Of a stretch of 64,000 nucleotides of DNA, positions 7,036 through 40,106 are shown in pieces (within the stretch, counting starts at the first letter, position 1; each line of letters starts with the position of its first letter). Below the pieces are notes generated by a model that did not search any database, had not been told where the DNA came from, and saw only the letters and a program-made list of their open reading frames with translations. Origin of the DNA: Verrucomicrobiaceae bacterium (GTDB lineage: Bacteria > Verrucomicrobiota > Verrucomicrobiia > Verrucomicrobiales > Verrucomicrobiaceae); assembly GCA_947507875.1 (NCBI GenBank), contig CANNQP010000011.1, forward strand, positions 1 to 64,000, read 5' to 3'. A program made the position numbers and the translations under genes.

Positions 7036-7381
7036 GAGAAAAGCAGCCTCCAACGTGTCGAGCCTAGCCCGACCTGCAAATGCGGAGATGCGCCGCTCGT
7101 GTCCTGCTCGTCCGGTGCCGGCGCAGCGCTTCAAGCGGACAAGCCGAAACGCACACATAGAATCATTCGCAGTGAACTCCTATCCAAGCCTCAGGCCAAT
7201 GCATGCCCTTTCCATGTCCTGTCAGGAGTGGTGCAAATCTCGCAGGCGTGTCCATTAAACGCCGCGGAAGAGAACTGGAAGACTCACAAACCTGCTCAAC
7301 TGAAAAAATAAAAGCACGCTGATGATTCTGCCGCTGTGCCGCTCACGGCGATCAAAGCGCCCCAAAGACAGGGACGAAAGT
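7036..7381. other. Intergenic region between cobA-hemD and the SRP RNA; no gene seen
   Basis: The region lies upstream of the leftward cobA-hemD gene and downstream of the leftward SRP RNA. On the minus strand, about 60-85 nt past the RNA end, there is a T-rich run (7299-7312 read as cttttattttttca) preceded by GC-rich inverted sequence around 7330-7355, which could terminate the RNA. No open frame here looks coding. Confidence 0.4.
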
Positions 7382-7471
7382 GTCAGGGAACCGCAGCATG
7401 GACAGGCATGCTGCCGTTGCTTCCGTCAGGACCTGGCGGGATTCACAAGCTGGACATCCGCGGCCCCTGAC
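7382..7471 (-). ncRNA. ffs: Signal recognition particle RNA, small bacterial (4.5S) type
   Basis: Read on the minus strand, the ends GUCAGGG (7471-7465) and CCCUGAC (7388-7382) pair, followed by CCGC/GCGG, giving a single long hairpin of about 90 nt. The apical part holds the conserved SRP domain IV: GUGAAUCCCGCCAGGUCC on the 5' side, then the loop, then GGAAGCAACGGCAGC on the 3' side. This includes the CAGG / AGCA symmetric-loop bases contacted by Ffh. The loop itself is UGAC where most bacteria have GGAA; it fits the URRC-type alternative. A promoter-like -35/-10 pair lies immediately upstream. With Ffh the RNA forms the particle that targets membrane proteins. The mature ends are inferred from pairing. 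Confidence 0.87.
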
Positions 7472-7476
7472 AAAGT

Positions 7477-11317: not shown

Positions 11318-11445
11318 CATGCCCAACAAGCTTTTCACCAACAATTCATACATGCCTAAATCTACTCAAGTCACGAGGTTCAAGGCTTAGCTTTTTCTCG
11401 CTATCCCTGTTCTAGCGAATACGCGCCACTTGTGGGCCACAAGAA

Positions 11446-11606: not shown

Positions 11607-12443
11607 TCAACGCGCCGCCTTGACCCCATGCAGGGCAAAAACCTGCTGAACCGCCTGGGTAATCGGCCCGGGTGCAGTTAACGGACGTCCATCGATCAGA
11701 TCGATCGGATGTACCTCGCGGGTCGATGAGGTCAAAAAAGCCTCCTCACAATGCTGCAGCACGGACAGTGGCAGATCACCCTCACGACACATAATGCCTG
11801 CCACACCACAAGCGTCGAGCACGAGGCGACGTGTGACTCCCGCCAGACAGCCTGAAGCCAAAGACGGTGTCATGAGTTGGCCTCCGACCACAACAAAGAC
11901 GTTCGAACTTGTGCCCTCACAAAGCTCTCCGCGTGTGTTCGCCATCAAAGCTTCACCTGCTCCCCGGGCTTTCGCATGAGCCAGTGCTACCACATTTTCT
12001 CCATATGAGGTGGACTTTACACCGCTCAACACTCCAGCCTCATGCTTGGACCAAGGCACCGTGCAAACGCGCTCCGTTGGAGGCCAGGCCTTCAAGGCCG
12101 TAGCCGTGATGAGTTGCGTGCACGGCTCTTTACCACGATCTGCAGCCAAAGGCCCCTCCCCGCTTGTCAAAGTCACACGCAGCCTCGCCTCTGTGAGTTC
12201 ATTCGCCTGAAGAACTGCCACCAAGGCCGAATGGAAGTCCGACTCTAAAATTGGCGTCAGTCCCATCAATTCGCACGACCTCACCAGCCGCTCGTAGTGC
12301 ATCTGCGGAGCAAACGGTACCCCACGCCTTGCCACCAGCGTCTCAAAAACACCATCCCCGACAAGCCAGCCATGATCAAACGGCGAAATTCGAACTTCTG
12401 CCGCCGTCAGCAGTTTCCCATTGAACCAAAGGATACCTTTCAT
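11607..12443 (-). CDS. Class IV PLP aminotransferase (aminodeoxychorismate lyase / branched-chain or D-amino acid aminotransferase-like)
   Basis: 278 residues, the usual length for PabC and D-amino-acid transaminase. Fold-type IV features are clear: FDHGWLVGDGVFETL at ~22-37, the pyridoxal Lys in GVKSTSYGENVV near 140, and the cofactor-binding block GELCEGTSSNVFVV near 172. The C-terminal segment EAFLTSSTREVHPI near 238 matches the SxR/TxE-type ending of the family. Sequence alone does not separate PabC (4-aminobenzoate formation for folate) from IlvE or Dat. No pabA/pabB or branched-chain genes are in the window, so a single symbol is not justified. Confidence 0.9.
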   Translation of the reverse strand: MKGILWFNGKLLTAAEVRISPFDHGWLVGDGVFETLVARRGVPFAPQMHYERLVRSCELMGLTPILESDFHSALVAVLQANELTEARLRVTLTSGEGPLAADRGKEPCTQLITATALKAWPPTERVCTVPWSKHEAGVLSGVKSTSYGENVVALAHAKARGAGEALMANTRGELCEGTSSNVFVVVGGQLMTPSLASGCLAGVTRRLVLDACGVAGIMCREGDLPLSVLQHCEEAFLTSSTREVHPIDLIDGRPLTAPGPITQAVQQVFALHGVKAAR

Positions 12444-36715: not shown

Positions 36716-37582
36716 TCAACCTTCCCCCTCCGCACCCCGCTTTCGGCCATGCAGCTTTTTCAGATACGCGTTGTCCGGCATGGGCTTCACGGGGCGTTCG
36801 GGGGTGGCGATCATTTGTTTCATGCGCTCGCCGCTGCTGGAGATCAGCTCGTGGATGATCTGGGCCTCGGGCAGGTTCTTCCAATACTTCTGCGGCATCT
36901 CGGACTGCATGGCCTGCACCTTCAGCCGCGCGGGATTGAAGATGCTGCGGTAATAGGTGCGCCAGAGGTCGTCGTGCGCGTCGGCATCGGGCACTTCGCT
37001 TTGGGAAACGCCGGGGCTGAAGGTGAGGTCCTGGCCGTCCCAGTGGGCGCATTCGTGCGGGGTCAAAATGGACCAGTCCATGCTGGCGAAGCGCTTGCGA
37101 AAGAACGGCGTGGCGAGCTGGACGATGCGATACTCGGGCTCAAACCAAGCCACGAACTGCTCGCGTTGCGTGGCTTCATCCACCCCGATGAGCCGGAAGC
37201 GGACAAAGGCATGCATCTTGTGGATGTCGCGCCCGATGGCCTTGGCCCAGACCTGGCACTGGCGCGTGTCGGGGTCGGCAGGATGGCTGAGCAAATGGCG
37301 CTCGCCACCCCAGGTGAGCCGATAGAGCAGGCGGTAAAGGATGGCAAAGCGGCGTGCATCGGTATGCGCGCAGACACTGGCGGCCAGGTTCAGGAACTCC
37401 GCAGGCACCTTGATGTCCGTGGGCGGTCGGGCCGTGTAGGCGGCGGGCTCTTCCATGAGCAGCGCCGGGGTCTGGGTGGCATCGCACCAATCCACGTGCT
37501 CGGGGCGAATGCCACGCTGGAGAAGCTCGCGAGCTTGGCCGCGCCAGGCGGAAAAGGTCGGCTGGATGGTGGCCGTGATCAT
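36716..37582 (-). CDS. Putative DNA metabolism protein (TIGR03915/DUF4130 family), partner of a radical SAM enzyme
   Basis: 288 residues. Family blocks are clear: FRWEARxLL-type start FSAWRGQARELLQRGI, then the DUF4130 core with RRFAILYRLLYRLTWG, IHKMHAFVRFRL, FVAWFEPEYRIVQLATPFF and MDWSILTPHECAHWDG. In many bacteria this protein is fused at its C-terminus to a family-4-like uracil-DNA glycosylase domain; here the protein ends after YLKKLHGRKRGAEGEG and no such domain is present. The start codon overlaps the stop of the upstream radical SAM gene (ATGA, 37579-37582), indicating translational coupling. The biochemical role is unknown; repair or modification of DNA bases is inferred from the family context. 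Confidence 0.9.
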   Translation of the reverse strand: MITATIQPTFSAWRGQARELLQRGIRPEHVDWCDATQTPALLMEEPAAYTARPPTDIKVPAEFLNLAASVCAHTDARRFAILYRLLYRLTWGGERHLLSHPADPDTRQCQVWAKAIGRDIHKMHAFVRFRLIGVDEATQREQFVAWFEPEYRIVQLATPFFRKRFASMDWSILTPHECAHWDGQDLTFSPGVSQSEVPDADAHDDLWRTYYRSIFNPARLKVQAMQSEMPQKYWKNLPEAQIIHELISSSGERMKQMIATPERPVKPMPDNAYLKKLHGRKRGAEGEG

Positions 37583-38886
37583 AGCTGCCCGCTCAGGGCC
37601 ATGAGCGCGTCCTGCGGCGTGGCAGGAGGCGGCGCGTTGAAGTTCAGCTCGAGCTGGCGCGGCGCGGGGAGAAACCGATGCCGCAGGTTCGCAGCCTCCA
37701 GCACCGCCACGCGCGGCGTGTGATCGGCCGCGATGATGAAGGGCAGCACTTTTTTCAGACTGACCCTCATGCGCTGGAGGTCGATCAGGCGCAGCCGCGA
37801 ATGCCGGCGGGCGGCGACGATGCGCTCCACATTCACCGTGCCAAGGCCGGGGATGCGCCAGAGCAGCTCACGCGGCGCGCGGTTGATATCGACGGGAAAC
37901 AGAGGCCGATTTCGCAGTGCCCAGGCGAGCTTGGGATCGAGCTCCAGATCGAGGTTCGGGTCCTCGCGCGGCAGGAGTTCACCGACGTCAAAGCCATAGA
38001 AGCGCAGCAACCAGTCGGCCTGGTAAAGGCGGTGCTCGCGGACAAGCGGCGGCGGCTTGATGGGCAGCAGCACACTGGGCTCGGGGATGGGGCTGAAGCC
38101 GCTGTAATACACGCGGCGCAGGCGGTAATCGCGGTAAAGCTCATCCGCCCGGGCGAGCACCAAAGCATCGCTGGATTCATCGGCGCCCACGATCATCTGG
38201 GTGCTCTGGCCGGTGGCAAAGACGGGCGCTTTGGCCCGTGGTGCGTTGCGAATCTGGCTCGCTTCTTTGCGTGCGGAGACCGTCTCTTCGATCTTCGCGC
38301 GGATGCCGCCCATGGCCTGCTTGGTGTTCGCCAGATTCTTTTCCGGAGCCAGCTTGTCCAAGCCCTCCTGCGTGGGCAGCTCAACATTGATGCTGATGCG
38401 GTCCGCGTAGCGCCCGGCTTTTTCGATGAGCTCCTGCGAGGCTTCCGGGATGGTTTTGAGATGGATGTAACCCCGGAAGTGATGCACCTCGCGCAGCTGG
38501 CGGGCGACCTCGATGACCTGCTCCATGGTGAAGTCCGCGCTGCGCACGATGCCGCTGCTGAGGAAGAGGCCTTCGATGTAGTTCCGCTTGTAGAAATCCA
38601 GCGTGAGCTGCACGACTTCCTCCGGCGTGAAGCGCGCGCGCTGCACATTGCTGGAGCGGCGATTGATGCAGTAGTGGCAGTCGTAGAGGCAGGCGTTGGT
38701 GAGCAGGACCTTGAGCAGCGACACACAACGCCCATCCGGCGTGTAGCTGTGGCAAATGCCCATGCCACCGGTGGAGCCGATGCCTTTGCCATCTCGGGAA
38801 TCTTTCCGTGCCGCTCCCGAGCTGGCGCACGAGGCGTCATACTTCGCGGCATCGGCCAGGATTTCGAGTTTGCGGGTAAGCTCCAT
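37579..38886 (-). CDS. Putative DNA modification/repair radical SAM protein (TIGR03916 family)
   Basis: 435 residues. The start matches the family opening (KLEILADAAKYDASC with SSG following). The iron-sulfur motif CLYDCHYC gives Cys 66, 70 and 73 (CxxxCxxC), followed by the radical SAM barrel: GLFLSSGI, YIHLKTIP, SINVELPT and a late QMIVGADESSD segment. The C-terminal ~110 residues contain a ComEA-like helix-hairpin-helix, PVDINRAPRELLWRIPGLG with VNVERIVAARR, suited to DNA binding. It is coupled by a 4-nt overlap to the TIGR03915 gene. A LexA-like palindrome abuts the ATG, leaving no room for a normal ribosome-binding site, so a leaderless transcript is possible. Confidence 0.92.
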   Translation of the reverse strand: MELTRKLEILADAAKYDASCASSGAARKDSRDGKGIGSTGGMGICHSYTPDGRCVSLLKVLLTNACLYDCHYCINRRSSNVQRARFTPEEVVQLTLDFYKRNYIEGLFLSSGIVRSADFTMEQVIEVARQLREVHHFRGYIHLKTIPEASQELIEKAGRYADRISINVELPTQEGLDKLAPEKNLANTKQAMGGIRAKIEETVSARKEASQIRNAPRAKAPVFATGQSTQMIVGADESSDALVLARADELYRDYRLRRVYYSGFSPIPEPSVLLPIKPPPLVREHRLYQADWLLRFYGFDVGELLPREDPNLDLELDPKLAWALRNRPLFPVDINRAPRELLWRIPGLGTVNVERIVAARRHSRLRLIDLQRMRVSLKKVLPFIIAADHTPRVAVLEAANLRHRFLPAPRQLELNFNAPPPATPQDALMALSGQL

Positions 38887-38887
38887 G

Positions 38888-38901
38888 CGTTCAAATGAAC
38901 G
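38888..38901. promoter_or_regulatory. LexA-like operator 1 (CGTTC-AAAT-GAACG)
   Basis: A 16-bp sequence with perfect 7-bp arms, GCGTTCA-AA-TGAACGC, spans 38887-38902, ending one base from the ATG at 38886. Its core GTTC-N4-GAAC matches the Verrucomicrobia LexA consensus TGTTC-N4-GAACA except for the outermost T and A. A weak -35-like TTGAGC lies about 17 nt before TAAGCG/AAGCGT upstream, which would place the operator over the transcription start. Confidence 0.7.
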
Positions 38902-38948
38902 CTTACGCTTAAACCATGCTCAGCGATGCTCAACCTCTAGGTTCCGCT

Positions 38949-38962
38949 TTTTCAAATGAACG
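38949..38962. promoter_or_regulatory. LexA-like operator 2, imperfect (TTTTC-AAAT-GAACG)
   Basis: This shares the AAAT spacer and GAACG half-site with operator 1 and is centred 61 bp from it. It mismatches the LexA consensus at position 2 (T for G) and at the last base. It also lies inside a larger inverted repeat GGTTCCG (38940-38946) / CGGAACC (38961-38967), which gives an alternative hairpin interpretation. Confidence 0.45.
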
Positions 38963-38992
38963 GAACCCAGGCTGGCAGAGATGCGCCGATCT

Positions 38993-39931
38993 TCAGTGCA
39001 TTTCCACCGCGACCTCACCGAGGCCTTTGCGGTAGTAGTTGAACTGCACGTTTTGATGATCCGCCAGGAGTGACATCGGCACGCTGCTGTCCACGATGCG
39101 TTTGGAGATCATCAGCGCGGTCAGGCGCTGCCCCAGCGGGTTGTCGTGCATGCCCGCGTGCCAGATGCTGACCTTCTCCGCCATCCAGGTTTCTTTCGGA
39201 CCCACGGTGATGGCCATCTGCGGGACCATGGTGATGTTACCGCCACCGGAAGTGCGCGCGTTTTGCGCCAGGGTGATGGGGTGCAAATCGACGATGCGAG
39301 TGCCGAGCTTGCGGTATTCGGCCGCAGGAGGCGGTTCATTCTTCCATTTCCCCGCACGCTTCACAGGATCGTTGAAGGCCCAGTGCTTGATGTCTCCCTG
39401 GCCGCCCTGCATGACGATGCATCGCACGCCGCTGCTCCAGCTTTTGATGTAGGCGCTGGTGTCCGCCTTGGGGAAATGCAGCTGGCTGTCCGGCATGACG
39501 AGCTTTTTCTGGATGCGGTCAAAGCACAGCTCACGGTCGGCTTTCTCAAAAGACAGCGGGTGATCCATGCTGACCTCCTTTTTGGTATCCGGGTCATACC
39601 ACTCATCCATGCCCCAGAAGTGTCCGTCCTTGATGGAGAGGCCGAGTTCATTCACCAGACGTGCCACGAGAGGCAACTGCTCCGTCGGGCCGATGGGGCC
39701 GCAGATGCCCGCAGGATTGTCCGGCGTGGCTTGACGCCAAGCGTGGATGTATTCCAAAGCCTCGGCCAAATAAAATTCCTCCAGCGTGTCATACATGACC
39801 ACTTTGAATCCGGGGCGGGAGAGCTGGCGAAGATCGCGCTCCGTCAGACGGGCCGCGTCATTGATCAGGGAATGGTCGAGCGTGGTGTAGTCCCACCAGT
39901 CGGGGGCGATGTGGCTGAGTTTGCGGGCCAT
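38993..39931 (-). CDS. NagB-like glucosamine-6-phosphate deaminase/isomerase family protein
   Basis: 312 residues from the ATG at 39931 (the frame extends 14 codons further). The NagB-type fold is indicated by [19 protein letters not shown] near 45, [14 protein letters not shown] near 100, where Asp/Glu of the active site sit, and the block [16 protein letters not shown] near 180. That block corresponds to the NagB GxGxDGHIAFNEP motif, with D-I-K-H instead of D-G-H. A later [17 protein letters not shown] segment near 245 fits the family's allosteric/phosphate-binding loop. It probably isomerises or deaminates a sugar phosphate. The altered motif makes the exact substrate uncertain. No other amino-sugar genes are nearby. 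Confidence 0.85.
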
Positions 39932-40106
39932 GGCGTGTTCGGAGGTGGAGGATTTGAGGGAGACGGAAGGCAACCGTCGTATTTATCGAGTATCATCAGC
40001 CACAGGGGCTTTTGCCAAGCCCGGACCGAGCTAGGGTGGTGTTTTTTCCCTCGCCAGAAGAAGCCGTAGGATTTAGATGCGCGCTAGCCAAATTCCCTTC
40101 TGCGTC

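Follow-up and report, generated by a model that had tools for sequence, protein, structure and literature searches.

The palindrome adjoining the start codon of the TIGR03916 radical-SAM gene is very probably a LexA operator, to judge from its position and its conservation. The window, that is, the whole stretch of 64,000 nucleotides that was analysed, contains this gene together with a TIGR03915 partner gene (Table 1). The complete explanation, according to which the site would keep the TIGR03916-TIGR03915 unit repressed until the DNA is damaged and a second copy of the palindrome farther upstream would be accidental or vestigial, can be held with high confidence. A preliminary description of this DNA had proposed that a LexA-type operator precedes the unit and had predicted from it that the unit belongs to the SOS response. 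This proposal is supported by the conservation of the site in orthologues and by clade-matched operators in other phyla.

Table 1. Features at and around the start of the radical-SAM gene, in window coordinates
Feature	Position	Strand	Remarks
Putative LexA operator core, GTTC-ATTT-GAAC	38889-38900	minus	Ends 2 nt before the ATG; position conserved in orthologues
Extended 16-bp interrupted palindrome, GCGTTC-ATTT-GAACGC	38887-38902	minus	Touches the ATG (38884-38886)
Site equivalent to the conserved -10 element TACTGT of the relatives, AAGCGT in the window	38899-38904	minus	Eroded in the window
TIGR03916 radical-SAM gene, 435 aa, C-terminal helix-hairpin-helix	37579-38886	minus	NCBIfam 568.9 bits (cut-off 343.5)
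TIGR03915/DUF4130 partner, 288 aa, without UDG half	36716-37582	minus	NCBIfam 202.4 bits (cut-off 112.25); Pfam DUF4130 131.5 bits
Second, imperfect copy, GTTCATTTGAAA, one arm-base mismatch, same spacer	38950-38961	minus	61 bp upstream; probably not an operator
Terminator-like hairpin; its loop contains the second copy	38937-38970	minus	Lies 23-56 nt past the upstream gene's stop codon
Upstream gene, distantly similar to glucosamine-6-phosphate deaminase	38993-39934	minus	Outside the two-gene unit

On the minus strand, the sequence ahead of the radical-SAM gene reads AAGCGTTCATTTGAACGC and is followed immediately by the ATG. The palindrome with the core GTTC-N4-GAAC was found there as described, and this core is the only exact occurrence of the motif in the window. 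The motif itself is not enriched. Sites with one mismatch number 19 in the window against 22.4 expected, and the 36 exact sites of the genome fall below the approximately 68 given by a simple 4^-8 expectation. It is therefore the position and conservation of the site, and not the motif by itself, that argue for an operator. The 4.45-Mb genome contains three copies of the 11-mer GTTCATTTGAA, two in the 106-bp intergenic region and one before the gene of a Y-family polymerase.

The LexA motif of Verrucomicrobia is reportedly TGTTC-N4-GAACA, as Erill and co-workers are said to have established in 2016. The site in the window, which had been assigned to this consensus, agrees with it in the core but not in the outer bases, which are C and G instead of T and A. 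It also differs in abutting the start codon and in having no recognisable promoter beside it. The outer base on the 5' side is T in 39 of 44 orthologue sites and A in the site before this genome's own uvrA. When scored with a matrix derived from the lexA, recA, uvrA and polymerase sites, the site reaches 8.8, close to the lower end of the training range (8.4-20.8), and ranks third among 63,985 positions; with a matrix derived from the orthologue sites it scores 15.1 and ranks second. Another box in the window, GTTCTAGCGAAT at 11409-11420, has the consensus flanks and outscores the site at the radical-SAM gene. It is flanked on either side by the 3' end of a gene and was set aside.

The genome contains a single lexA gene, and the box GTTCGAGCGAAC ends 9 nt before its ATG. 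Exact GTTC-N4-GAAC boxes are also present near the starts of recA, uvrA and the Y-family polymerase gene, so that the genome shares with the Verrucomicrobia operator both the core and its placement before these four genes. The LexA protein has kept the Ala-Gly cleavage site (IAAG), the serine of GESM and the lysine of LKR, and by these motifs it is of the cleavable, self-cleaving type. The occurrence of the box near the starts of lexA, recA, uvrA, the polymerase gene and the radical-SAM gene, combined with the self-cleavage motifs of LexA, indicates that LexA of this organism has GTTC-N4-GAAC as its box. The 12-mer preceding the start of the polymerase gene, GTTCATTTGAAC (locus L009, positions 1501-1512), is identical to the box of the window. 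The genome has a further exact box a short distance ahead of a gene encoding the Ctc-like ribosomal protein L25 (locus L025, positions 12001-12012); this might be an unexpected SOS candidate or a product of chance.

The comparison covered 100 TIGR03916 loci from the same order; the start could be placed in 98 of them, and 97 have upstream sequence. An exact GTTC-N4-GAAC is present in the last 60 bp before the start in 39 of these 97 orthologues, as compared with a mean of 0.07 and a maximum of 2 after shuffling. Conservation of the palindrome in orthologous promoters, the check that had been suggested together with the operator, thus gave a strongly positive result. Among 11 other patterns subjected to the same test, only GTTC-N3-GAAC was seen, once, and the interior of the orthologous genes, which served as a control, contains no exact box. 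The 44 orthologue sites have 33 different spacers, the arms being fixed by the definition of a match, and their likeness is therefore not a matter of simple recent inheritance. The commonest distance between operator and start codon is 2 nt, the same as in the window. Some relatives carry the operator in the form TACTGTTC-N4-GAAC.

More than half of the orthologues have no exact box within 60 bp, and many of these possess one-mismatch, half or more distant sites. In seven members of the window's genus that lack the box in the last 60 bp, it is located approximately 60-200 bp upstream instead, and in five of them (L098, L102, L106, L110 and L112) it has the symmetric form ACTGTTC-N4-GAACAGT. 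When the search is extended to 200 bp, the exact box is found at 27 of 42 loci in the window's own family (f1), at 14 of 31 in f2, at 5 of 17 in f3 and at none of the 8 in f4. A half-site is conserved in 14 of the 17 f3 loci. In f4, the recognition helices of LexA are altered, for example to SPRAASLHVESL, SSSSVQLHLNAL or SQTAAVDVLRAL as opposed to SQTAAMSHLRAL, and those lexA promoters of this family that were read contain no GTTC-N4-GAAC box. Having no box and different LexA helices, f4 can be regarded as a natural control for clade dependence.

Several different LexA recognition helices are present among the f4 loci L145-L147, L151, L153, L159, L160 and L162. A repeated ATCATATGAAC element surrounds the lexA start in L162, and an TGTATACAAATGAATACATG element is found in L145-L147; these elements suggest that there may be new LexA motifs inside this family. 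In the Akkermansia-like genus g12 of family f2, none of the 13 genomes searched gave a LexA match, and the g12 genomes listed have weak partial matches to TIGR03916 and no full gene. The regulator and this SOS gene thus appear to be absent together.

When the relatives are aligned on the operator, TTGAC occupies positions -26 to -22, and TACT the four bases directly before the operator (-4 to -1). These elements belong to a promoter in which the -35 element TTGAC is followed, after 16 nt, by the -10 element TACTGT, the last two bases of which are the first two of the operator. Because promoter and operator overlap in this manner, the message of the relatives should be nearly leaderless; transcription would begin within the operator's 3' half, some 5-7 nt short of the ATG. 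The window has retained the operator and its spacing from the ATG, but has AAGC in place of TACT. A sigma-70 promoter scan of this region gave no match, and no -35/-10 pair is recognisable there, which makes the promoter of this species uncertain. The earlier proposal that the operator occupies the position of the ribosome-binding site of a leaderless or nearly leaderless message thus fits the relatives, with their overlapping promoter; for the window, where the promoter is eroded, it is a prediction.

The drift of the promoter elements and of the outer flanks might mean that the site in this species is a functionless relic, an ancestral operator left behind after a rearrangement upstream. Among the species sampled, the upstream gene adjoins the radical-SAM gene only in that of the window, and its homologues in the genomes of the genus lie at separate places, apart from the region of the radical-SAM start. 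However, none of the eight arm bases has been lost and the box still ends 2 nt before the ATG, despite the changes in the neighbouring bases; such a loss of function is very unlikely. A working LexA operator is the preferred reading of the site.

The clade dependence extends beyond this order. A scan of named genomes, with clades assigned from the record titles, yielded 80 further TIGR03916 loci. At the same gene, 54 of 56 alphaproteobacteria have GTTC-N7-GTTC and 4 of 7 Verrucomicrobia have GTTC-N4-GAAC. CTGT-N8-ACAG is present there in 5 of 7 betaproteobacteria, as well as in one of two non-xanthomonad gammaproteobacteria (Pseudomonas tremae). Control stretches at those loci, taken far upstream or within the gene, contain none of these motifs. 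The three Xanthomonadaceae loci and several Verrucomicrobia have none of the motifs tested. From established SOS knowledge, we take GTTC-N7-GTTC, CTGT-N8-ACAG and GTTC-N4-GAAC to be the LexA motifs of the respective clades. The presence of different motifs at one gene, each of them matching the local LexA, is strong evidence for function.

The same comparison bears on the possibility that the palindrome acts in the RNA, where GCGUUC-AUUU-GAACGC folds into a small hairpin of 6 bp adjoining the AUG and could block the translation of read-through transcripts without binding any protein. In the relatives, however, the arms consist of GTTC only and the outer flanks are mostly unpaired. The alphaproteobacteria, moreover, have at this position a direct repeat, GAAC-N7-GAAC, which is unable to form such a hairpin. 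An action of this kind is highly improbable, and binding of LexA to the DNA is the favoured explanation.

The preliminary description had interpreted the palindrome and its second copy as tandem LexA operators and had mentioned, as an alternative, that the second copy could be part of a hairpin. The imperfect copy is indeed present 61 bp upstream, with the same spacer and one mismatch, and the alternative is favoured: the copy forms the loop of a hairpin with a 10-bp stem and an energy of -21.7 kcal/mol (z -4.66), which was matched by none of 200 shuffles. Neither a T-rich tail nor a T run was found after this hairpin. Hairpins also follow several homologues of the upstream gene, which are located elsewhere; two of these hairpins have T-rich tails. 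The sequence that precedes the radical-SAM gene is different in close relatives and contains no second site. The second copy most likely belongs to the terminator-like hairpin of the upstream gene, either by accident or as a vestige.

If both copies were LexA operators, they would represent a duplicated pair 61 bp apart, giving stronger repression. An exact direct repeat of 12 nt in the 106-bp intergenic region is unlikely to arise by chance (1 of 5000 mononucleotide shuffles). This rarity, combined with the fact that the 11-mer has only one further copy in the genome, before the polymerase gene, makes an old duplication of the operator possible. Furthermore, the second copy ranks third with the orthologue matrix, or twelfth with the SOS-gene matrix, among the 63,985 positions. 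Nevertheless, it is the weaker match, with a mismatch in an arm base and no T flank, and it is enclosed in a stable hairpin of a kind that is also often found after the homologues of the upstream gene. No inspected orthologue has a second site at the 61-bp spacing, and the close pairs seen in a few relatives have a spacing of just about 15-22 bp. The tandem arrangement was not upheld and is improbable; a single operator next to the ATG is preferred. The box pairs in question precede the radical-SAM gene at loci L056, L079, L081, L087 and L100 and are unlike the tandem proposed for the window.

The radical-SAM protein matches the Pfam family Radical_SAM and, weakly, HHH_3; in the PDB it has a weak match to ComEA. 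The TIGR03915 gene overlaps its stop codon by 4 nt. A UDG half of the TIGR03914/UdgX type, either fused or adjacent to DUF4130, was not found, and the 288-aa partner has no UDG match. The sole TIGR03914-like protein of the genome scores below the cut-off and is encoded on another contig. In those members of the window's genus that were read, the partner likewise has about 280-300 residues and consists of DUF4130 alone. DUF4130 proteins fused to a UdgX-like domain (GEQPG, HPS-x-LLR) occur in alphaproteobacteria, in one Chthoniobacteraceae genome and in some Verrucomicrobiales. Because the operator is kept in the UDG-fused as well as in the UDG-less form, the radical-SAM/DUF4130 pair, and not the glycosylase, looks like the core of the system. 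An AlphaFold model of DUF4130 (mean pLDDT 75) has no PDB match with E < 0.001, and a sequence search of the PDB gave nothing convincing, so that no reaction can be named from the fold. Elsewhere in the window, positions 7378-7472 of the minus strand contain a gene for the bacterial small SRP RNA (Rfam RF00169, 52.1 bits).

The radical-SAM/DUF4130 pair is widespread, and to our knowledge no reaction has been assigned to it. TIGR03916 presumably corresponds to the COG4277 family, predicted DNA-binding proteins with a helix-hairpin-helix. SOS regulation of a UDG-based system has been reported in Verrucomicrobia and Alphaproteobacteria, and such regulation has been predicted for the COG1573-COG4277 system in Bacteroidetes (PMC8565304). 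LexA control of this gene family in Verrucomicrobia is thus not new (PMC8565304, citing Erill 2016). The unit of the window shares with the COG1573-COG4277 base-excision operon of that paper the TIGR03916/COG4277 protein and a LexA-type operator at its start, but has as its partner, like the rest of its genus, a DUF4130 protein without the UDG half. Passages of Aravind et al. (2013, PMC3765255) place DUF4130 in SOS gene neighbourhoods, where it is connected with SplB-like radical-SAM proteins and with uracil-DNA glycosylases. The pairing of DUF4130 with a radical-SAM protein and the SOS context are common to that network and the window; the operator and the two-gene form lacking UDG are not described in those passages.

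By combining these observations, it is possible to outline how the unit would be controlled. In undamaged cells, a LexA dimer positioned over the transcription start and the start codon would block transcription of TIGR03916-TIGR03915. The area under the dimer would include the -10 element and the start point and would reach almost to the start codon. Upon DNA damage, RecA* would induce LexA to cleave itself, and the unit would then be expressed from a message with a very short leader or none, devoid of a ribosome-binding site. The products, a radical-SAM/helix-hairpin-helix protein and a DUF4130 protein, would subsequently act on the damaged DNA.

It may further be that TIGR03916 and DUF4130 constitute a core SOS cassette across phyla, in which the UDG half, to which explanations of the system often appeal, is dispensable. 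Its LexA site would have been re-created in the motif of each clade (the N4 palindrome, the N7 direct repeat or CTGT-N8-ACAG) and its end would typically be separated by 2 nt, in Verrucomicrobia and Alphaproteobacteria alike, from the start codon of a leaderless message. The evidence inclines somewhat towards this generalization. The finding extends a known theme, the SOS control of this family, and does not open a new one. A local LexA operator is present in most of the alphaproteobacteria and in many of the Verrucomicrobia and betaproteobacteria examined, the UDG-less genus included, and this points to a DNA-damage function of the pair itself. The time to look for the substrate of the pair would be after SOS induction, and the operator lying over a nearly leaderless start is a prediction that can be tested in culturable relatives.
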